From Planosporangium flavigriseum (GTDB lineage: Bacteria; Actinomycetota; Actinomycetes; Mycobacteriales; Micromonosporaceae): a stretch of 64,000 bases of DNA. The notes beneath the pieces were generated by a model. It saw only the letters and a program-made list of their open reading frames with translations, was not told where the DNA came from and did no database searches. The translations under genes were made by a program, and so were the position numbers. This document shows positions 1-11,463 of this stretch, piece after piece. The first letter of the stretch is position 1. Each line of letters starts with the position of its first letter. The stretch covers positions 62,001 through 126,000 of the forward strand of contig NZ_JAATVW010000004.1 in assembly GCF_011947225.1 (NCBI RefSeq), written 5' to 3'.

Positions 1-172
1 CGTTGCGGTTGGGCCCCGGGCGCACCTGCATGTACGCGACGGCGCGGCGCTCGTACCAGATGGTGAAGAGCGTCATCACCACGAGGAACGCGAAGATACC
101 AACGATCTTGATGAGGACCAGCCACCACGGGTCGTGGCCGAACTGGTCCACTGAGCCGGCTGCGAGGGTCAC
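1..172 (-). CDS. nuoH: NADH-quinone oxidoreductase subunit H, N-terminal part
   Basis: Membrane subunit of complex I that helps form the quinone-binding chamber at the junction with the peripheral arm. Only the first 57 codons are inside the window; the rest lies to the left. The visible part has a hydrophobic helix (about residues 18-37) followed by the family signature [17 protein letters not shown], typical of NuoH/ND1. The start is GTG at 172, which overlaps the nuoG stop by four bases (GTGA), so translation is coupled to nuoG. Partial only because of the window edge. Confidence 0.93.
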
Positions 173-2610
173 TCGGCACCTCCTGCGCTGATCTCGACCA
201 CGGCCCCTGCGGTCACGCCGAGCGTGCGGCGGACCGTGGACCCGGCCGAGTTGGTCGGCACCCACACCACGCCGTCGACCATGTCGTCGACGATCATGGC
301 CGGGAGCGTGATCGCGCCCTGCTCGGAGCGGACGGTGAGGGGGTCACCATCTGCCACGGCCAGGCCACTAGCGGTCGCCTTGGAGAGCGTGACGACGGCC
401 GGCCGCGCGGTTCCGGCCAGGTACTCGTCGCCGTCCTGCAGCGAACCGAGGTCGATGAGCTGGTGCCAGGTCGCGAGGATGACCCGCCGGCGACCGGCGA
501 CGACCGGCTCGGCCGGCGGCACGGTCACCCCGGCCGCCCGGAAGCGCGGCGGCGCGGGCAGCGGGGTCCGGGTGTTCGCGAGGGCGGCAAGCTGCCGGCG
601 CACTTCCAGCACGTCGCCGCAGCCGAGCTGGACACCCATCTCGGCGGCGAGCGCGTCCAGCACCCGCGCGTCGCTCATCGCCGTCGTGCGAAGGACGGCG
701 TCGAACGGGCGGATCCGGCCCTCCCAGTCGACGTAGGCGCCGGCCTTCTCGACGGCGGGCGCGACCGGGAAGACCACGTCCGCCCGATTGGCGACGGCGC
801 TGCGCCGCAGCTCGATGCTGACCAGGAAGCCGACCCGGTCGAGGGCCTCCTCCGCGAACCGGGGCTGCGCCAGGTCACCGGGTTCGACCCCGGCCACCAC
901 CAGGCCGCCCAGGGAACCGGCGGCCGCCGCCGCGATGATCGCGTCGGTGTCCCGGCCCGGCGCCGTGGGCATGGGGCTGTCGCCCATCTCCCACACCTGG
1001 GTCAGCTCGCCGAGCGCGCCGGCGTCGCTGACCGGCCGCGAGCCGGGTAGCAGGTTGGGCAGGCAGCCCGCTTCCAGCGCACCGCGGTCGCCGGCGCGCC
1101 GCGGCACCCAGGCGAGCCGGGCGCCGGTCTCGGCGGCGAGGTCCGCGGCGGCCGAGAGGCCACCGGGGACGGTGGCGAGGCGCTCACCGACGAACAGGAT
1201 CGCGCCGGGCTCGCTGAGCGCGGTGCGGATGGCGCTGCTCTCGGCGAGTACCGAGGCCTCGTTGCCGGGGACCGTCGGCAGCACGGTGGCGCCAATCTTG
1301 GCGTACCCGCGGGTGGTGAACGGCGCGACGGCGATGGCCCGCAGCTTGTTCTTGCGCCACGCCTTGCGCAGCCGCAGGAACAGGATCGGGCACTCCTCCT
1401 CCGGCTCCAGGCCGACGATCACCACCGCCGGGGCCGTCTCCACCTCGGCGTAGGTGACCTCGACCCGGCCGACGACGGAGCTCGCGAGGAACTCGGTCTC
1501 CTCGGCGGACAGCGGCCGGGCCCGGAAGTCGATGTCGTTGGTTGCGAGGGCGACCCGGGCGAACTTCGCGTACGCGTACGCGTCCTCGACGGTGAGCCGG
1601 CCGCCGGTGAGCACACCGACGCCGCCGTTGTCCCGCGCCCGGGCCAGCCCCTCGGCCGCGACGCTCAGCGCCTCGGGCCAGCTCGCCTCGCGCAGCTCAC
1701 CGGTCTTGGCGTCGCGTACGAGCGGGGCTGTGATCCGGTCGAAGGCGTTGGCGTACTGGAAGCCCCAACGGCCCTTGTCGCAGTTCCACTCTTCGTTGAC
1801 CGCCGGGTCGTCACCGGCCAGCCGGCGCATGACCTTGCCGCGCCGGTGGTCGGCACGCATCGAGCAGCCGGCTGAGCAGTGCTCGCACACACTGGGCGTG
1901 GAGACCAGGTCGAACGGCCGGGCCCGGAACCGGTACTGGGCGCCGGTCAGCGCGCCGACCGGGCAGATCTGCACCGTGTTGCCGGAGAAGTAGGAGTTGA
2001 ACGGCTCATCGTCGTCCGGCGTCGCGGCGTCGCCGCGGAACACGCCGATCTGCTCGGCCGCGCCGCGCTCCATCAGGTCGATGAACTTGTCACCGGCGAT
2101 CTCGTCGGAGAACCGGGTGCAGCGCTGGCACAGCACGCACCGCTCCCGGTCCAGGAGCACCTGCGAGGAGATGGCCATCGGCTTCTCGTACTCGCGCTTG
2201 GGCTCGTGGAACCGGGACTCCGGGCGACCGGTGGACATCGCCTGGTTCTGCAGCGGGCACTCGCCGCCCTTGTCGCACATCGGGCAGTCGAGAGGGTGGT
2301 TGATCAGGAGAAACTCCATGATCCCCTCTTGTGCCTTCTTCGCGACCTCGGACGACCGCTGGGTCTTGACGACCATGCCGTCGGCGACCGCCTGCGTACA
2401 CGAGGCGACCGGCTTGCGCTGGCCCTCCACCTCGACCAGGCACTGCCGGCAGGCGCCGGCGGGTGCCAGGAGCGGGTGGTCGCAGAAGCGCGGGATCGCG
2501 ATGCCCATCTGCTCCGCGACGCGGATAAGCAGCGCGCCCTTCGGCGCCTCCACCTCGATGCCGTCGATGGTGAGCTTGACGGTGTCTGCGGCCTTTTCCA
2601 CGGACGTCAT
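169..2610 (-). CDS. nuoG: NADH-quinone oxidoreductase subunit G
   Basis: Large Fe-S subunit of the complex I NADH-oxidising arm, 813 residues. The N-terminal ferredoxin-like domain has a [2Fe-2S] set (Cys43, Cys54, Cys57, Cys71), then the His-Cys3 cluster segment ([15 protein letters not shown]) and a CxxCxxC...CP set for further [4Fe-4S] clusters. A CxxCxxxCx27C set follows, which is the site of the extra N7 cluster present in only some bacterial NuoG proteins. The rest is a molybdopterin-oxidoreductase-like fold without cofactor function. The start chosen is the ATG at 2610, giving MTSVEK; the reading frame is open much further upstream, but that part overlaps nuoF and has no homology. It shares one base with the nuoF stop (TAATG). 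Confidence 0.95.
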
Positions 2611-3926
2611 TAGTGCGCACCTACCAGTTCGCCGGCGCCGAACATCGGAGCCTTGCGGCCCTCGATGTAGTCCAGGTAGTCCTGCTTGAAGTACTTGATC
2701 GACGACGTCACCGGGCTGGTCGCGCCGTCGCCGAGGGCGCAGAACGACCGTCCGAGCAGGTTGTCGCAGGTGTCGAGCAGGGTGTCCAGGTCCTCGTGGG
2801 TGCCCGCGCCCGACAGGATCCGGCGCAGCACGTGCGCCATCCAGTAGTTGCCCTCCCGGCAGGGGGTGCACTTGCCGCACGACTCGTGGTGGTAGAACTC
2901 GATCCACCGGTACGTCGCGTAGACCGGGCAGTCGGAGTCGGAGAAGATCTGCACCGCCGTGGTGCCGAGCATCGTGCCCGCGGCCGCCATCGACTCGAAG
3001 TCCATCGGCACGTCGAGGTGCTCGGCGGTCAGCAGCGGAGTCGACGACCCACCCGGAGTCCAGAACCTCAGCTCGTGCCCGTCCTGCATGCCGCCGGCCA
3101 GTTCCAGCAGTTCGCGCAGGGTGATGCCGAGCGAGCACTCGTACTGACCGGGGTTGGCGACGCGGCCGGAGATGGAGTAGATCTTCGGGCCGGGCGACTT
3201 CTCGGTGCCCATCGTCTTCCACCAGGCGGAGCCGCCCAGCACGATGTAGGGCACGCTGCAGATCGTTTCGACGTTGTTGACGACCGTCGGCGAGCTGTAC
3301 AGGCCGTGCGTAGCCGGGAACGGCGGCTTGAGCCGGGGCTGGCCGCGGAAGCCCTCGAGGGAGTCCAGCAGCGCCGTCTCCTCACCGCAGATGTACGCGC
3401 CCGCGCCACTGTGGACGACGAGGTCCAGGTCGAATCCGGAGCCCAGGATGTTGCGGCCCAGGTAGCCCCGCTGGTACGCCTCGTCGACCGCGCTGCGCAG
3501 CCGCCGGGCGGAGTGCATGGCCTCGCCCCGGATGTAGATCGCGGCGAAGTTCGCACGGATCGCGTACGCGGCGATGATGATGCCTTCGACCAGCGAGTGC
3601 GGGTCGGCCATCATCAGCGGCAGGTCCTTGCAGGTGCCCGGCTCGCCCTCGTCGGCGTTGACCACCAGGTAGTGCGGCTTACCGTCGTTCTGCGGGATGA
3701 AGCCCCACTTCATGCCGGTCGGGAAGCCGGCGCCACCGCGGCCGCGCAGGCCCGAGTCCTTCATCAGCTGGATCAACTCGTCCGGGTGCGCCTTGAACGC
3801 CTTGCGCAGCGCGGTGTACCCGTCGAGCCGCTCGTACATGCTGATCTTCCAGGCGTCCGGCGACAGCCAGCGCTTGGTGAGGACGGGGGTGAGCTTGGCG
3901 AGAGCGCCCTGGGATGGGTTGCTCAC
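2610..3926 (-). CDS. nuoF: NADH-quinone oxidoreductase subunit F (NADH/FMN-binding)
   Basis: Complex I subunit that binds NADH and FMN and carries cluster N3; 438 residues, the usual length. Visible signatures are the glycine-rich nucleotide/FMN loop [15 protein letters not shown], the [15 protein letters not shown] segment, and the C-terminal N3 ligands [12 protein letters not shown] plus a later Cys in SFCALGDGA. It lies between nuoE (4-base ATGA overlap) and nuoG (1-base overlap), so it is part of one coupled transcript. Assignment is firm. Confidence 0.97.
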
Positions 3927-4717
3927 TTGGACTCCTTACCAACCGCCGGCGCGTCACCGGCGGGCTTGCCATCTGAGGCCGGCTTCGGTGCCGACGGCGG
4001 CACGCTGTTGCCGGGGCCCGAGCCCTTGTCTTCGCGGCGGCTGATCGGGGTGTTCGGGTCGAAGCCCGCCACCGTGACGCCGAACCGCTCGGCGAGCCGG
4101 TTGCCCGCGAGGGTCGGCTCCCCGGCCGGCCCCTCCCCGACCGCGCCCTGCCGGTCGTCGGACCAGCCGGCGAGCTGCAGCGAAGCCTCCTTGAAGGTGC
4201 ACAGCCGCGGCCCGCGGGTCGGCTGCGGGCGCTCACCGTTCTCCAACTGCTTGACGAGGTCGAGCGCCTGGTCGGCGTCGATCTGGTCGAAGAACTCGTA
4301 GTTGACGGTCATGACCGGCGCGTAGTCGCAGGCCGCGAGGCACTCCGCGTGCTCGAGCGTGATCCTGCCGTCCTCGGTCGTCTCATCGTGCCCCACGCCG
4401 AGGTGCTCGCTGAGCGCCTTGTACGCCTTGTCGCCGCCGAGCACGCCGCACATCGTGTTGGTGCACACGCTGACCAGCCAGTCACCGACGGGCCGCCGCT
4501 TGTACATGGTGTAGAAGGTGGCGACCGCCGCGACCTGAGCCTTGGTGATGCCCAGCATCTCGGCGCAGAACGCCATGCCGTCCGGCGAGACGTACCCCTC
4601 CACCGACTGCACGAGGTGCAGCATCGGCAGCAGGGCCGAGCGCTCCCGCCCGGCCGGGTAGCGGGCCATGATGGCCCGGGCCCGCTCGCGGGTCTCTTCG
4701 GTAAAGGTCTCGCTCAT
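3923..4717 (-). CDS. nuoE: NADH-quinone oxidoreductase subunit E ([2Fe-2S])
   Basis: Thioredoxin-fold subunit holding the [2Fe-2S] cluster N1a; it partners NuoF in the NADH dehydrogenase module. The ligand pairs are visible as CTNTMC and ECLAAC. At 264 residues it is about 100 longer than the E. coli protein; the extra part is a C-terminal low-complexity tail rich in Pro, Gly, Ser and Lys after about residue 165, as in other actinobacterial NuoE proteins. It overlaps nuoD and nuoF by four bases each. Confidence 0.96.
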
Positions 4718-6039
4718 CGGTCACATCCGCCCATCACGGGGTCCAGCGAAGCGCCACCGGCGATCACGTCGGCGATCAGGCCGCCCTCGGCCATCGCCGG
4801 GATCGCCTGGAGGTTCACGAAGCTCGGCTCCCGGTAGTGCACCCGGTACGGCCGGGTCCCGCCGTCGGAGACGGCGTGCACGCCCAGCTCGCCACGGGGC
4901 GACTCGATCTGCAGGTACACCTGGCCCGACGGCACCCGGAAGCCTTCGGTCACCAGCTTGAAGTGGTGGATGAGGGACTCCATCGACTGCCCCATGATCT
5001 TGGCGACGTGTTCGAGGGAGTTGCCCATACCGTCGGCGCCGACGGCCAGCTGCGCCGGCCAGGCGATCTTGCGGTCGGCCACCATGACCGGGCCCGGTTC
5101 GAGCCGCTCCAGGGCCTGCTCGATGATGCGCAGGCTCTGCCGCATCTCGTTCAGCCGAACCTGGTAGCGACCCCACACATCGGCGTCGGTGCTGGTCACC
5201 ACGTCGAAGTCGTACGTCTCGTAGCCGCCGTACGGCATGGTCTTGCGCAGGTCCCAGGGCAGCCCCGCGGAGCGCAGCACCGGGCCGGTGATGCCGAGCG
5301 CCAGGCAGCCGGCGGCGTCGAGGACCGCGACACCCTTGGTGCGCTCCTGCCAGATCACGTTGCCCGACAGCAGGTCCTCGTACATGTTCAGCCGGTCGGG
5401 CATGAACTTCACGAGCTCGCGGATCCGCGCGATCGCCTCGTCCGGGATGTCCTGGGCCAGGCCGCCCGGGCGCACGTACGCGTGGTTCATGCGCAGGCCG
5501 GAGGCGAGCTCGAAGATGTCGAGGATGTACTCCCGCTCCCGGAAGCCGTAGATCATCATCGACAGCGCGCCCAGCTCCATGCCGGTCGTCGCCAGCCACA
5601 CCAGGTGCGACGAGATCCGGTTGAGCTCCATCATCAGGATCCGGATCGTCTTGGCCCGGTCCGGGATCTGGTCGGTGATCCCGAGCAGCTTCTCCACCGC
5701 GAAGGCGTACCCGGTCTCGTTGAACATGGGAGCCAGGTAGTCCATGCGGGTGACGAACGTGCTGCCCTGCGTCCAGTTGCGGAACTCGAGGTTCTTCTCG
5801 ATTCCGGTGTGCAGGTAGCCGATGACCAGGCGGACCTCGGTGACCGTCTCGCCCTCGAGTTCGAGGACCAGCCGGAGCACGCCGTGGGTCGACGGGTGCT
5901 GCGGGCCCATGTTGACGACGATCCGCTCGTCGGCGAGCGGGTCGGCACCGCTGACGACGTCGTCCCAGTCACCACCGGTGACGGTGAAGACCTTGCCCTC
6001 AGTCGTCTCGCGCGCGCTGGCGTAGTCAGTATTCGTCAC
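4714..6039 (-). CDS. nuoD: NADH-quinone oxidoreductase subunit D (49 kDa)
   Basis: Quinone-site subunit of the complex I connecting module, 441 residues. It contains the conserved [14 protein letters not shown] segment of the 49-kDa/NuoD family near residue 43, whose His lines the quinone pocket, and ends with the [11 protein letters not shown] tail typical of the family. The gene sits between nuoC and nuoE with 4-base overlaps on both sides. Separate nuoC and nuoD genes are the normal actinobacterial arrangement, unlike the nuoCD fusion of E. coli. Confidence 0.97.
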
Positions 6040-6752
6040 TGGTAACTCCTGCGCTGGTCGGGCGGTGGGATCTCGGCGCCCTTGTACTCGACGGGTACGC
6101 CACCCAACGGGTAGTCCTTGCGCTGCGGGTACCCCTCCCAGTCGTCCGGCATCAAGATCCGGGTGAGGTTGGGGTGGCCGTCGAAGATGATGCCGAACAT
6201 GTCGTACGCCTCACGCTCCTGCCAGTCGGCAGTCGGGTAGACGGTGGTTACGCTCGGTAGGTGCGGGTCCTCGGCCGACACGGCGGCTTCGAGCCGGATC
6301 CGGCGGCGGTAGGTCATCGAGGTCAGGTGGTACACGGCATGCAGTCGCTTGGCGTCTCCACCGAGGTAGTCGACGCCGGACACGGACGAACACAGCTCGA
6401 ACCGCAGCGCGAGGTCGTCGCGCAGGGCCTGGCACACCTCGGCGATGCGCTCGGCCTTGACGTGCAGGGTGAGCTCACCCCGGTCGACGATGACCTTCTC
6501 GATCGCGTCGCTGAAGCCCGGGTACGCGGCTTCGAGGGAGTCGACGACCTCGTCGAAGTACCCGCCGTACGGGCGCGGGGTGTCGAGGGCGACGCTGCGC
6601 CGGCGGACCAGGCCACCGAAGCCGGACGTGTCACCGGAGCCGCTGACCCCGAACATGCCGATGCCCGCGGGGGTGGACGGCGGATAGTCGGCCGGCGCGC
6701 CGGTGTAGGCGCCCTCGGGCTCGGTCTCGACCGGTACTTTTGGCTCGCTCAC
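6036..6752 (-). CDS. nuoC: NADH-quinone oxidoreductase subunit C (30 kDa)
   Basis: Peripheral-arm subunit that packs against NuoD. The 238-residue protein ends with the 30-kDa family signature: [18 protein letters not shown], followed by [20 protein letters not shown]. About 70 N-terminal residues are a Gly/Pro/Ser-rich extension common in actinobacteria. The start is GTG at 6752, inside a GTGA overlap with the nuoB stop. A longer frame reading back into nuoB is open but would lie wholly within that gene, so it is rejected. Confidence 0.95.
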
Positions 6753-7441
6753 CGAGACCCTCCGTTCTTGCGCGACACGGTGCCTGCGATGCGCGCCCGC
6801 TCCTCCATCCACTTCTGGATTCGCAGCTGCTCCTCGCGGCCCTGGGCGGACGCCTTCAGCCACTCCGCCCTGCGCTGCTTGTTGAAGCGGTAGCTCGACG
6901 GCATCTCGCCGGGCTCGACCACCGGCGCACCCTCGCGCTCGCGGATGGCCTCGAGCTGCTTGCGGCGCTTCTCACCGAGCGGCTCGTGCATGACCTTCTC
7001 GTGCAGCCGCAGGATCGCGTCGATGAGCATCTCGGGGCGCGGCGGGCATCCCGGCAGGTACATGTCGACCGGCACGATGTGGTCGACGCCCTGCACGATG
7101 GCGTAGTTGTTGAACATGCCGCCGCTGCTCGCGCAGACGCCCATGGACAGGACCCACTTGGGCTCGGCCATCTGGTCGTAGATCTGGCGGAGCACGGGGG
7201 CCATTTTCTGGCTGACCCGACCGGCAACAATCATGAGGTCGGCCTGGCGCGGGCTCGGCCGGAAGACCTCCATACCGAAGCGGGCCATGTCGTAGCGGGC
7301 ACCGCCGGAGGCCATCATCTCGATGGCGCAGCACGCGAGGCCGAACGTCGCCGGCCACATCGACGCCTTGCGGGACCAGTTCACCAACTTCTCGACGCTG
7401 GTGAGCAGGACGCCGCTGGGGAGCTTCTCTTCGATACCCAT
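6749..7441 (-). CDS. nuoB: NADH-quinone oxidoreductase subunit B (N2 cluster)
   Basis: Complex I subunit that carries the terminal [4Fe-4S] cluster N2, next to the quinone site. The ligands are visible: the tandem Cys pair in [10 protein letters not shown], then [11 protein letters not shown], and LPGCPPRPE. It is 230 residues with a charged C-terminal tail. The start at ATG 7441 gives [13 protein letters not shown], which matches the family; the upstream open frame is nuoA read out of frame. Two bases separate it from the nuoA stop. Confidence 0.96.
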
Positions 7442-7443
7442 GA

Positions 7444-7809
7444 TCAGTCCCAGTCCAGCCCGCCGCGCCGCCAGACGTAGGCGTACGCGACGAACACGGT
7501 CGTGATGAAGAGCACCATCTCCACGAACCCGAACAGGCCGAGCGCGTTGAAGGACACCGCCCACGGGTACAGGAAGATGATCTCGATGTCGAACACGATG
7601 AAGAGCATCGCGGTCAGGTAGTACTTGACCGGGAAGCGGCCGCCGCCGATGGGCTGCGGGGTCGGCTCGATGCCACACTCGTACGCGTCGAGCTTGGCCT
7701 TGTTGTAGCGGCGGGGGCCGGTGAACGGCGCGATCGCCACCGAGAACAGTGCGAACGCGGCTCCGAGGGCCAAAAGCCCCACGATGGGTATGTACGCCGA
7801 GAGCGACAT
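7444..7809 (-). CDS. nuoA: NADH-quinone oxidoreductase subunit A
   Basis: Small membrane subunit of complex I, 121 residues, with three predicted transmembrane helices (about residues 6-28, 62-83 and 88-110) and the conserved YECGIEP loop that contacts NuoB and NuoD. It is the first gene of the nuo operon in the window. The leader upstream (7810-7941) holds the promoter region; a weak purine-rich tract lies before the ATG. Confidence 0.96.
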
Positions 7810-7941
7810 GGCTGAAGCCTGCTCCGTCCTTTCCCTGTTCCGGTGCCCCTACGTCCGTGTCTCGGTGTGTTACCGATCACCGATCCGGCCCGTAGGGGAC
7901 TTCACACTATTCCTGCTCTTGGACCGCCTGCTGTCGGGGTG
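7810..7941 (-). promoter_or_regulatory. nuo operon leader with inverted repeat
   Basis: The 132-base gap between menJ and nuoA must contain the nuo promoter unless menJ reads through. It holds an 8-bp inverted repeat, CCCCTACG at 7846-7853 and CGTAGGGG at 7891-7898, around a 37-base loop, and no run of T that would suggest a menJ terminator. A TTCACA half-site at 7900-7905 resembles half of a Rex operator, but no partner half was found. Promoter boxes could not be assigned with confidence. Confidence 0.35.
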
Positions 7942-9201
7942 TCATGCCGCCGGCGCCACCTTCGTCAATGCGGTGATGATCCGGTCCATGGCGTCGCCCC
8001 CACGGGGATCGGTGAGGTTGGCCAACAGCTTGAGGACAAACCGCATCAGCGTTGGGTGCGGCATACCGTGCTTGGTGGCGATCCGCATGACCTCGGGGTG
8101 GCCGATCAGCTTCACGAACCAGTTACCCAGCCGGTAGTAGCCGCCGTAGCGCGCCTTCAGTTCGGCGGGGTACGCAGCGAACGCCCGCTCCCGCTCGGGA
8201 CCGGCCGGGCGGGCGAGGGCCTGAACGGCCACCTCGGCCGCCAGTTCACCGGACTCCATGGCGTACGCGATCCCCTCGCCGTTGAAGGGGTTGACCATGC
8301 CGCCGCAGTCGCCGACCAGCAGCACGCCACGGGTGTAGTGCGGCACCCGGTTGAAGCCCATCGGCAGCGCCGCGCCCTGGATACCACCGTCGGCGTGGGC
8401 CTCGTCGTTCAGCTGCCAGTCGTCCGGCGTGGACGACAGCCAGTCGGTGAGCAGCGTGCGGTAGTTGGTCTTGCCGAAGGCGGCCGACGAGTTGAGCACC
8501 CCGAGGCCGGCGTTGACCCGGCCGTCGCCCATCCCGAAGATCCACCCGTACCCGGGCAGCAGCTTCTCGGGGTGCTCCTTGCTGCGCAGTTCCAGCCACG
8601 ACTCCAGGTAGTCGTCGTCATGCTTGGCGGGGCTGCGGTAGTAGCGCCGGACGGCCACCCCCATCGGCCGGTCTTCCCGCTTGGCGAGGCCGAGCGCCAG
8701 CGCGAACCGCCCGGAGACCCCGTCGGCCGCGATGACGAGCGGCGCGCGGTACTCGACCGGCTCTCCGCCGGCGGTCGCCTTGACGCCGACGGCCCGGCCG
8801 GAGGAGTCGAGGATCGGACCGGTCACGTTGGTGCCGGTCTTGAGGACCGCGCCCGCCTCGCTGGCGCGGGTGGCGAGCAGCTGGTCGAAGTCCATCCGGG
8901 TACGGGTCAGCCCGTAGTTGGGGAAACTCGCCAGATCGGGCCAGGCCAGTTCCAGCCGGACACCGCCGCCGATGACGCGCAGCCCCTTGTTGTGCAGCCA
9001 GCCGGCCTTCTCAGAGGTGTCGATCCCCATCTTGACCAACTGCTTGACCGCACGCGGGGTCAAACCGTCGCCGCAGACCTTCTCCCGCGGGAACTCGGTC
9101 TTCTCCAGCAACAGCACCCTGAGTCCGTGCTGGGCGAGATGATAGGCGGCCGAGGAGCCACCCGGTCCAGCGCCGACGACGATGACGTCCGCGTCGCTCA
9201 C
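7942..9201 (-). CDS. menJ: Menaquinone side-chain reductase (geranylgeranyl reductase family)
   Basis: FAD-dependent oxidoreductase of the geranylgeranyl reductase family. Its mycobacterial relative MenJ partly saturates the isoprenoid tail of menaquinone, making MK-9(II-H2). The dinucleotide fold is visible at the N-terminus (IVVGAGPGGSSAAYHLA) together with the GDG and GDCGGMVNPFNGEG segments that bind FAD. The start chosen is GTG at 9201 (419 residues): a GGGAGG ribosome site ends 5 bases before it, whereas the GTG at 9207 overlaps that site. Its closeness to menG supports the quinone role. A Rex-like operator lies 49-66 bp upstream. Confidence 0.85.
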   Translation of the reverse strand: MSDADVIVVGAGPGGSSAAYHLAQHGLRVLLLEKTEFPREKVCGDGLTPRAVKQLVKMGIDTSEKAGWLHNKGLRVIGGGVRLELAWPDLASFPNYGLTRTRMDFDQLLATRASEAGAVLKTGTNVTGPILDSSGRAVGVKATAGGEPVEYRAPLVIAADGVSGRFALALGLAKREDRPMGVAVRRYYRSPAKHDDDYLESWLELRSKEHPEKLLPGYGWIFGMGDGRVNAGLGVLNSSAAFGKTNYRTLLTDWLSSTPDDWQLNDEAHADGGIQGAALPMGFNRVPHYTRGVLLVGDCGGMVNPFNGEGIAYAMESGELAAEVAVQALARPAGPERERAFAAYPAELKARYGGYYRLGNWFVKLIGHPEVMRIATKHGMPHPTLMRFVLKLLANLTDPRGGDAMDRIITALTKVAPAA

Positions 9202-9249
9202 AGCCACCTCCCGGCCTCGTTGGGCCCGTGTTGACCTACCGCCGGCCGC

Positions 9250-9267
9250 TCGTGAAAGTCTTCACAA
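9250..9267. promoter_or_regulatory. Predicted Rex operator upstream of menJ
   Basis: The 18-base sequence TCGTGAAAGTCTTCACAA matches the Rex consensus TTGTGAA-N4-TTCACAA at 13 of 14 fixed positions and is a near-perfect palindrome. It sits 49-66 bases before the menJ start, where a bound repressor would block transcription. Rex is known to release DNA when NADH is high and to control respiratory genes in actinomycetes. Binding here is inferred from the motif only. Confidence 0.6.
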
Positions 9268-9312
9268 AGTGCCCGGCGTGAAGTGTAGAACCGATGTGGT
9301 GCAGATCGCTTG

Positions 9313-9326
9313 TTAGGCAGACCTAA
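9313..9326. promoter_or_regulatory. Palindrome TTAGG-N4-CCTAA
   Basis: Perfect 5-4-5 palindrome TTAGGCAGACCTAA in the AT-richer gap between menG and menJ. It shares the TTAGG/CCTAA ends of DtxR/IdeR iron boxes, but those are 19 bp long, so the spacing is 5 bp too short. It may be a regulator site of another family or chance. Confidence 0.25.
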
Positions 9327-9379
9327 TGTCGATGACTTTTTGTCACCGGTACTGATTCGGGGCCGCAGGGCGCCGGAAG

Positions 9380-10072
9380 TTAGGGCCGGATGGCCCGGTG
9401 CAGGGCGACGATCCCGCCGGTGAGGTTGCGCCACGCCACCTTGCCCCATCCGTTCGCGCCGATACGGGTGGCCAGGCCGGCCTGATCCGGCCAGGCCCGG
9501 ATCGACTCGGCCAGGTAGACGTAGGCGTCCGGGTTGCTCGCCACGCGCCGCGCCACCTCAGGGAGCGCGCGCATCAGGTAGCTCATGTACGCCGTGCGGA
9601 ACGGGGCCACGGTCGGGTGGCTGAACTCGCACACCACCAACCGGCCGCCCGGTCGCGTCACCCGGGCCATCTCCCGCAGCGCGGCGTCAGCGTCCACAAT
9701 GTTGCGCAGAGCGAACGAGATCGTGACCGCGTCAAAAGTTGCATCCGCAAACGGGAGCGCCAGGGCGTCGCCGGCCAGCAACGGCACCTCGGGCCGGTGC
9801 TGGTGACCGGCCTGCAGCATGCCCAGGGACAGGTCCGCACCGACCGCGTACGCCCCCGACCGCGCCAACTCCTCGGTCGATACGCCGGTGCCGGCGCCGA
9901 GGTCCAGCACCCGCTCACCGGGCTTCAGGTCGAGAGCCAGCCGGGTCGCGCGACGCCAGCCGCGGTCACGCCCGAACGACAGGACGGTGTTGGTCAGGTC
10001 GTAGCGCTTGGCGACCCCGTCGAACATGGCCGCCACTTCGTGCGGCTGCTTGTCCAGGTTGGCACGTGTCAC
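9380..10072 (-). CDS. menG: Demethylmenaquinone methyltransferase
   Basis: SAM-dependent C-methyltransferase (UbiE/MenG family) that converts demethylmenaquinone to menaquinone, the last ring step. The 230-residue protein has motif [15 protein letters not shown], the [20 protein letters not shown] segment and the [12 protein letters not shown] motif of the family. The start is GTG at 10072 ([18 protein letters not shown]), which aligns with known MenG proteins; the longer open frame upstream adds only low-complexity residues. It lies between mqnC and menJ on the same strand, though a hairpin at 10131-10162 separates it from mqnC. Confidence 0.93.
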
Positions 10073-10130
10073 GGGGAACACTGTGCCAGCGCCCCCGGCG
10101 GTGAAGACGCGCGGGGGGCCCGTTGGCAGG

Positions 10131-10162
10131 CCGGGAGCCGGCACCCGAACGCCGGCTCCCGG
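10131..10162 (-). terminator. Hairpin between mqnC and menG
   Basis: Perfect 12-bp inverted repeat, CCGGGAGCCGGC at 10131-10142 and its complement at 10151-10162, with an 8-base loop. It lies 110 bases past the mqnC stop in the direction of transcription. No T run follows, so it could be a factor-dependent terminator, an attenuator or an mRNA stabiliser. Confidence 0.5.
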
Positions 10163-10272
10163 TCTTATGTGGCGGTGCACTAGTCGGTGAGCGGCACAGT
10201 GACTGCCCGCCGACGCCGCGCCAAAACCAGGAGTACGCCGCCAACTGCGCTGATTCGAGGACCGCGTGCTGA

Positions 10273-11463
10273 TTAACGCGTCTCCACCAGCGGCAACGAA
10301 CGCCCGGCGCCGCCACCCGGCATGGCGATCGACGAGAAGTGGGAGACCACCCGCTCGTCCGTCGGGTCGTCGGCGGGCGTCCAGTGGACCCTGAGGTGGT
10401 TGTACCGGGTGTCACGCTGGGCAGGGATGCGCCCGGCGGTGCGGATCATCTCGACCAACTCGGTCAGCTTGGAGCGGTGGCGGGCACCGGCCGAGGAGAT
10501 GACGTTCTCCTCCAGCATGATCGAGCCGAGGTCGTCGACGCCCATGTGCAGCGACACCTGACCGACGTCCTTGCCCGTCGTCAGCCACGAGGACTGCAGG
10601 TGGGCGACGTTGTGGAAGAACAGCCGGGCCACCGCGATGAGCCGCAGGTACTCCAGCGACGTCGCCTGCGTCCGGCCCTTGAGGTGGTTGTTCTCCGGCT
10701 GGTACGTCCAGGGGATGAACGACCGGAAGCCACCGGTACGGTCCTGAACGTCCCGGATCATCCGCATGTGTTCGATGCGCTCGGCGTTGGTCTCACCGGT
10801 GCCCATCATCATCGTCGCGGTCGACTCGATGCCCAGGTGGTGAGCGGTCTCCATGACCTCGAGCCAGCGCTCGCCGGACTCCTTCAACGGAGCGATCGCG
10901 GTACGCGGGCGGGCCGGCAGCATCTCTGCCCCGGCACCGGCGATCGAGTCCAGGCCGGCGGCCTTGATCCGGCGCAGCGCCTCCTCGATCGAGGTGCCCG
11001 ACACCTTGGCCATGTGCAGGACCTCGCTCGGCCCGATCGAATGAATGACCAGGTCCGGGAACTCCCGCTTGACCGACGAGAAGAGCTCTTCGTAGTACTC
11101 AACCCCGAAATCGGGGTGGTGGCCGCCCTGCAGCATGACCTGCGTCGCGCCCAGGGCAACCGCCTCGGCGCAGCGCCGCAGGATCTCGTCCAAAGAGTGC
11201 GACCAGCCCTCGGCGTGCTTCGGCGCCCGGTAGAACGCGCAGAACTTGCAGGCCGTCACGCACACGTTCGTGTAGTTGATGTTGCGATCGATGATGTACG
11301 TGACGATGCCGTCCGGGTAACGCCGGCGGCGCACCGCGTCGGCGGCCTCGCCGAGCGGATGCAGTGGCGCATCGGTGTAGAGGAGCAGCGCCTCCTCTGG
11401 ACTGATCCGGCCACCATCGGCCGCGCGCTGGAGGATGTCGTCGAGCTCCCGGTTCCCACTCAC
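10273..11463 (-). CDS. mqnC: Cyclic dehypoxanthinylfutalosine synthase (radical SAM)
   Basis: Radical SAM enzyme of the futalosine pathway; it cyclises dehypoxanthinylfutalosine into the bicyclic naphthoate precursor. The 396-residue protein carries the cluster motif CVTACKFC (Cys68, Cys72, Cys75) inside the MqnC-type context [19 protein letters not shown], followed by [19 protein letters not shown], a stretch typical of MqnC rather than MqnE or CofH. The start is GTG at 11463. The gene is isolated from the paa operon by a strong hairpin at 11529-11583. Confidence 0.93.

Follow-up and report, generated by a model that had tools for sequence, protein, structure and literature searches.

A conserved promoter before menJ and the complex I operon of Micromonosporaceae joins a Rex operator with an IdeR half-site: possible control by NADH and iron

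Introduction

Complex I is the main point at which NADH enters respiration, and it carries many iron-sulphur clusters. In Streptomyces avermitilis, Rex binds and represses nuoA1, and the experimental Rex targets which that report describes include rex itself (autoregulated), a WhiB gene and nuo (PMC5355995). On the side of iron, a 14-bp half-site consensus of the regulator IdeR, TTAGGNNNNCCTAA, has been defined, and metal-dependent binding of a single IdeR dimer was observed on the half-site of the Saccharopolyspora erythraea nuo operon with an apparent KD of 102 nM; the same report refers to other bacteria in which iron induces nuo and leaves the role of the nuo half-site for future study (PMC8464063), a question that is repeated as open in PMC10317159. 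According to the latter report, the IdeR box covers the -10 or the transcription start in IdeR-repressed genes, and IdeR-activated genes tend to carry several boxes. The literature searched yielded no report that places both Rex and IdeR at a single nuo promoter, nor any in which menJ or a geranylgeranyl reductase is connected with Rex, although the 2012 comparative genomics of Rex and RegPrecise, which lay outside the search, may list menJ. Herein, we propose that the gap between menG and menJ contains a composite promoter, formed by a Rex operator, a -10 box and an IdeR half-site, which probably drives menJ together with the complex I operon nuo.

Results

Gene order and the menJ-like enzyme

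The window, that is, the whole 64-kb stretch of DNA that was analysed, comes from a 5.72-Mb draft genome of Micromonosporaceae in 85 contigs, and all of the genes described here lie on its minus strand. The genome was assigned to the family through its relatives, the nearest named match being a Dactylosporangium MAG with 89% protein identity. The upstream neighbour, menG, encodes a demethylmenaquinone methyltransferase (9380-10180, an upper bound based on the first start; NF001241, 396 bits, cut-off 327). The first gene of the unit is a menJ-like gene of the geranylgeranyl reductase family (7942-9201, 419 aa), whose start is read by us as the GTG at 9201, preceded by GGGAGG. The nuo operon adjoins it on the same strand, as the initial annotation had noted: nuoA (7444-7809; NF005922, 213.6 bits, cut-off 155) begins 132 bp 3' of the menJ stop and is followed by the co-directional nuoB to nuoG (169-7678, the span of the listed open reading frames, whose first-start ends are upper bounds, especially for nuoB and nuoG). 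A scan of positions 7300-10400 gave no match to an intrinsic terminator or to a sigma-70 consensus promoter. In the menJ-nuoA gap (7810-7941, minus strand), the inverted repeat CCCCTACG...CGTAGGGG forms a stem in the predicted fold (MFE -42.9); by eye, its exact arms are absent from three genus-mates.

The menJ-like product scored 261.6 bits against the geranylgeranyl reductase family TIGR02032, above the subfamily cut-off of 158.8, and 240.7 bits against the MenJ model NF045655, below the equivalog cut-off of 700. On the same MenJ model, a Streptomyces relative scored 243.0 and three MenJ-like proteins from other genomes of the class scored 569-586, also below 700. No second full-length homologue was found in the source genome at E<=1e-10, where only a partial match of 35% was observed. 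The protein probably takes part in menaquinone saturation, since it is the sole full-length member found and its gene lies beside menG and mqnC. Thus, membership in the geranylgeranyl reductase family is supported, the score against the MenJ model stays below the cut-off, and the menaquinone reductase named in the initial annotation is likely from the gene context.

The Rex operator and the promoter around it

The Rex operator TTGTGAAGACTTTCACGA occupies 9250-9267 on the minus strand (TCGTGAAAGTCTTCACAA in forward-strand letters) and differs from the consensus TTGTGAANNNNTTCACAA by one mismatch, with 13 of the 14 fixed bases in agreement, as initially annotated. It is separated from the menJ start codon by 48 bp and therefore spans the bases 49-66 upstream of menJ, a position that holds with the GTG start at 9201. 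In the 64-kb window alone, such a match is not significant (0.29 matches expected at <=3 mismatches; at least one match in 27 of 100 shuffles), and the significance of the operator comes instead from its rarity in the whole genome, its position and its conservation. Across the 5.72 Mb, four places lie within one mismatch of the Rex consensus, including the rex promoter, when the genome is scanned for the same site as the initial annotation had suggested; at <=3 mismatches, 26 Rex-like places were found versus 13 for the reversed-pattern control. Moreover, among 1,980 dinucleotide-shuffled versions of the upstream regions of the 66 family genomes, none carried a site at <=1 mismatch and a single one carried a site at <=2 mismatches. 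A chance match, which the window alone could not exclude, was rejected on the basis of genome-wide rarity and conservation.

The other three sites within one mismatch were found before rex itself (operator 1501-1518, ORF start 1407, in locus L004), 132 bp 5' of a WhiB-family gene, and 144 bp 5' of the ORF start of pckA, encoding PEP carboxykinase (L003, G000:C12:43187-43204). The site upstream of pckA raises a possible tie between NADH and gluconeogenesis. Further Rex-like sites of the genome have two mismatches (C1, C23).

Whether the alignments are anchored on the Rex operator or on the iron half-site, they place a -10 box, TACACT, at 9282-9287 on the minus strand. This box reads TAGACT in most relatives and starts 18-22 nt before the operator in the family alignments, in which no conserved -35 was found; in other families, a looser pattern detected a -10-like hexamer 13-23 nt before the operator in 70 of the 74 sites. 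The operator lies between the -10 box and menJ, and since the transcription start is assumed to be 7 nt past the -10 box, at 9275 on the minus strand, the operator would be located at about +9 to +26.

The GTGAA and CAC positions are invariant in all 142 aligned operator sites, an extent greater than that of the Crp-type core described below. The 18-bp palindrome might also be regarded as the site of a Crp/GlxR-type regulator and not of Rex. Crp-type sites have the core TGTGA-N6-TCACA, which is contained in the palindrome; however, A7 (142/142) and T12 (141/142) are conserved despite lying outside this core, the same class of site is found upstream of rex, and a genome without rex (G205, a single lineage) has lost the site. 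We consider a Crp/GlxR-type site very improbable.

Conservation of the operator and presence of rex

The family was sampled with 66 Micromonosporaceae genomes out of the 197 that carry the gene (200 searched), comprising the 30 best-scoring genomes and others picked to span 43 of the 44 genera. In every one of these genomes, menJ adjoins nuoA and is preceded by the operator with at most two mismatches (none in 6, one in 58 and two in 2). Beyond the family, 148 genomes were drawn across the class and all 108 of their listed loci outside Micromonosporaceae were examined; nuoA was called adjacent when within 450 bp of menJ. Where the two genes adjoin, the operator was present in 74 of 76 loci (no mismatch in 14, one in 28 and two in 32), and these 74 loci are spread across 20 of the 21 families; where nuoA does not follow menJ, it was found before menJ in 0 of 26 loci. 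Three of the remaining loci were too short downstream (two of them with the operator) and three were too short upstream. The reversed operator pattern gave no match better than three mismatches across the family and class loci. In a named collection, the operator was observed in 34 of 36 adjacent loci, nine of the 36 repeating sequences already counted, and before menJ in none of the 25 non-adjacent loci, the 18 loci with nuoA further off or the single locus with an unclear neighbour. In one family (f15), four loci have a second, weaker Rex site (2-3 mismatches) directly before nuoA in addition to the site before menJ.

The initial annotation had staked its reading on conservation of the site upstream of menJ in relatives and, beforehand, on a Rex gene in the genome; the first is observed in the counts above, and the second is present. 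The source genome encodes a Rex protein of 251 aa, with a single PF06971 match above the cut-off and a CoA_binding domain, whose best PDB matches are Rex structures (top 3ikv, E 9.7e-48). PF06971 matches were obtained in 122 of the 148 genomes of the class draw. Seventy-four of the 76 adjacent class loci come from rex-bearing genomes, and 73 of these carry the operator, the exception being G268. The two genomes of the adjacent set without a rex match are G205, which lacks the operator, and G258, which carries it; the latter is a draft of 380 contigs, 94% complete, and two of its genus-mates carry rex. The loss in G205 represents a single lineage, the only member of its order in the set, and L198, whose genome likewise has no rex match, repeats G205 with the same sequence as L067. 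At locus L214, rex is present and the operator is absent. Taken across the class loci, these counts are suggestive, but not decisive, of a dependence of the operator on rex; an operator without a detected rex (G258) and rex without an operator (G268 and L214) are counted against the composite promoter.

The operator follows nuo

In 18 loci of Streptomycetaceae with a readable nuoA (Streptomyces and Wenjunlia), the menJ-nuoA gap extends over 1,666-2,354 bp, and a two-mismatch operator lies 63-142 bp before nuoA in 18 of 18; most of these operators agree with the nuoA1 sequence footprinted in S. avermitilis. The absence of the operator before non-adjacent menJ genes, together with its presence before nuoA in Streptomycetaceae, argues that the operator is part of the nuo transcription unit, of which menJ would usually be the first gene. 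A switch dedicated to menJ was rejected, since the operator is missing wherever menJ is not beside nuoA. Thus, the initial reading of the operator as a control of menJ stands insofar as the site precedes menJ, but the site follows nuo. The pattern points to Rex control of nuo as already known, in which menJ rides along as the first gene; menJ is predicted to be included under the operator in most sampled families and excluded from it in Streptomycetaceae.

These results also bear on a simpler explanation, in which Rex alone matters: the site would be an ordinary nuo operator, menJ a passenger, and the iron half-site described below either repressing or idle. Rex control of nuo has been published for Streptomyces (PMC5355995; PMC8981147), and the loci themselves agree with this explanation, given that the operator precedes menJ in none of the 26 non-adjacent class loci and none of 43 loci of the named collection (25 non-adjacent and 18 far), and that the far loci carry it before nuoA (18/18).

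A different division of labour is suggested by a possible internal -10 box, TAGTGT, at 7904-7909 on the minus strand, which stands before nuoA without a Rex operator. Of the 66 family loci, 37 have this hexamer in the menJ-nuoA gap, compared with none of the 76 others, and in the window it lies about 95 nt before nuoA; the reversed-pattern control for this count is uninformative, as the reversal equals the query. The conserved TAGTGT(GAA) of the gap overlaps a Rex-like half-site. The box could drive nuo independently of Rex or IdeR, which is counted against the composite promoter, and the upstream promoter might then serve mainly menJ, with most complex I mRNA made from the internal nuoA promoter and with Rex and IdeR specifically tuning the quinone tail. 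The occurrence of the box in the family is consistent with such an arrangement; its absence from 29 of the 66 family loci and from all 76 others, as well as the absence of an operator before menJ genes that do not adjoin nuoA, speak against it, and we consider it improbable.

The IdeR half-site

A second element of the same promoter, which the initial annotation had missed, is an IdeR/DtxR half-site, TTAGGTCTGCCTAA, at 9313-9326 on the minus strand. It is 14 bp long, is an exact match to TTAGGNNNNCCTAA (TTAGGN4CCTAA), and is predicted to lie at -51 to -38, with its centre at -44.5. The 66 family genomes carry the half-site exactly in 51 cases, with one mismatch in 9, with two in 2 and with four or more in 4, and the reversed pattern gave no family case below three mismatches; in the 1,980 shuffles, the exact half-site was never obtained and a site at <=1 mismatch was obtained once. 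In the family alignment, conservation is 89-100% at the ten box positions and 30-60% in most flanking columns. The full 19-bp IdeR box for two dimers, TTAGGTTAGSCTAACCTAA, was not found, as the family columns outside the 14-bp half reach at most 66%. The -10 box, the Rex operator and the IdeR half-site are all conserved across Micromonosporaceae. Measured from its start, the half-site lies 39 nt (48 genomes) or 40 nt (13 genomes) upstream of the -10 box in every one of the 61 measurable cases, unlike the distance from the operator to the menJ start, which varies. The source genome encodes IdeR (NCBIfam DtxR, 317.6 bits, cut-off 290), with all 15 of the DNA-contact residues named in PMC8464063 conserved.

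The fixed spacing at about -44.5 and the lack of a conserved -35 suggest activation, and the position of the half-site fits that of an Fe(II)-dependent activator. The explanation by Rex alone leaves three observations aside, namely the spacing of 39-40 nt in 61 of 61 cases, the binding of IdeR at the nuo operon of S. erythraea (PMC8464063), and the difference between -51 to -38 and the positions of IdeR-repressed boxes published in PMC10317159. We regard control by Rex alone as rather unlikely.

Several observations on the half-site are counted against the composite promoter. First, four of the 66 family genomes lack the half-site, one of them (L021) in the genus of the source genome. Second, at the same place in the 76 sites of other families, none was found at <=1 mismatch and two were found at two mismatches. 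Third, a single half-site is present here, compared with the several boxes that activated IdeR genes tend to carry in the account of PMC10317159. Outside the family, a half-site precedes TAGACT by 38 nt, at the corresponding place in the promoter, in G268, which has rex and no Rex operator. In three Saccharopolyspora loci, the half-site lies in the menJ-nuoA gap, ahead of nuoA and 40 nt before TAGAGT (3/3), with the Rex operator before menJ, and in L214 a half-site lies in the same gap, 39 nt before TAGGGT.

Discussion

In the present study, the composite promoter is proposed to act as follows. Rex bound at +9 to +26 would block the promoter just past the transcription start, and a rise in NADH would cause Rex to depart. 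Under iron sufficiency, a single Fe(II)-IdeR dimer at -51 to -38 would aid the binding of RNA polymerase at a promoter without a conserved -35. The highest output would then be expected when NADH and iron are both plentiful, which would suit the iron-sulphur-rich complex I, and menJ would be produced alongside complex I. In other words, respiratory capacity probably depends jointly on how much NADH is present and how much iron is supplied, and we infer that the NADH/NAD+ ratio might in this way set the saturation of the menaquinone tail. More specifically, and more tentatively, at somewhat less than even confidence, we suggest that one Fe(II)-IdeR dimer centred at about -44.5 activates the complex I promoter in a class-II-like manner, which would settle how IdeR acts at half-sites; with the Rex block at +9 to +26, the promoter would become an iron-AND-NADH gate. 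This gate would govern complex I and, in the majority of Actinomycetes that share the gene order, also the reductase for tail saturation. The slight and brief rise of nuoA1 in S. avermitilis under oxygen limitation, as described in PMC5355995, is counted against the composite promoter.

If this proposal is true, one promoter senses both of the needs of complex I, electron supply and iron. The fixed spacing of 39-40 nt makes two questions that PMC10317159 presents as open, the action of IdeR at half-sites and activation by IdeR, amenable to testing. The operator appears to stay with nuo even as its immediate downstream gene varies, and the apparent escape of menJ from it in the Streptomycetaceae lineage offers a natural experiment on the need for redox control of quinone saturation.

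Compared with known systems, the locus shares the operator consensus and the downstream operon with S. avermitilis nuoA1-N1 (PMC5355995), and the autoregulated rex and the WhiB-family target of S. avermitilis have counterparts among the four best sites of the source genome. However, the S. avermitilis operator stands before nuoA and over the -35 and -10, whereas the operator described here stands before menJ, downstream of the -10, and includes menJ; an iron half-site is present here, and none is reported for S. avermitilis nuo in the available sections of PMC5355995. The order of methyltransferase, geranylgeranyl reductase and nuo is also that of ubiE-ggr-nuo in Actinomyces oris (PMC5478893), a report whose available sections do not discuss control by Rex or IdeR and do not study ggr itself. 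With S. erythraea nuo (PMC8464063), the locus shares the 14-bp consensus TTAGGNNNNCCTAA and the operon, and the three Saccharopolyspora loci have the same spacing of the half-site to a -10-like box, at 40 nt. In Saccharopolyspora, the half-site and the Rex operator belong to two separate promoters, whereas in Micromonosporaceae both are united in one, before menJ.
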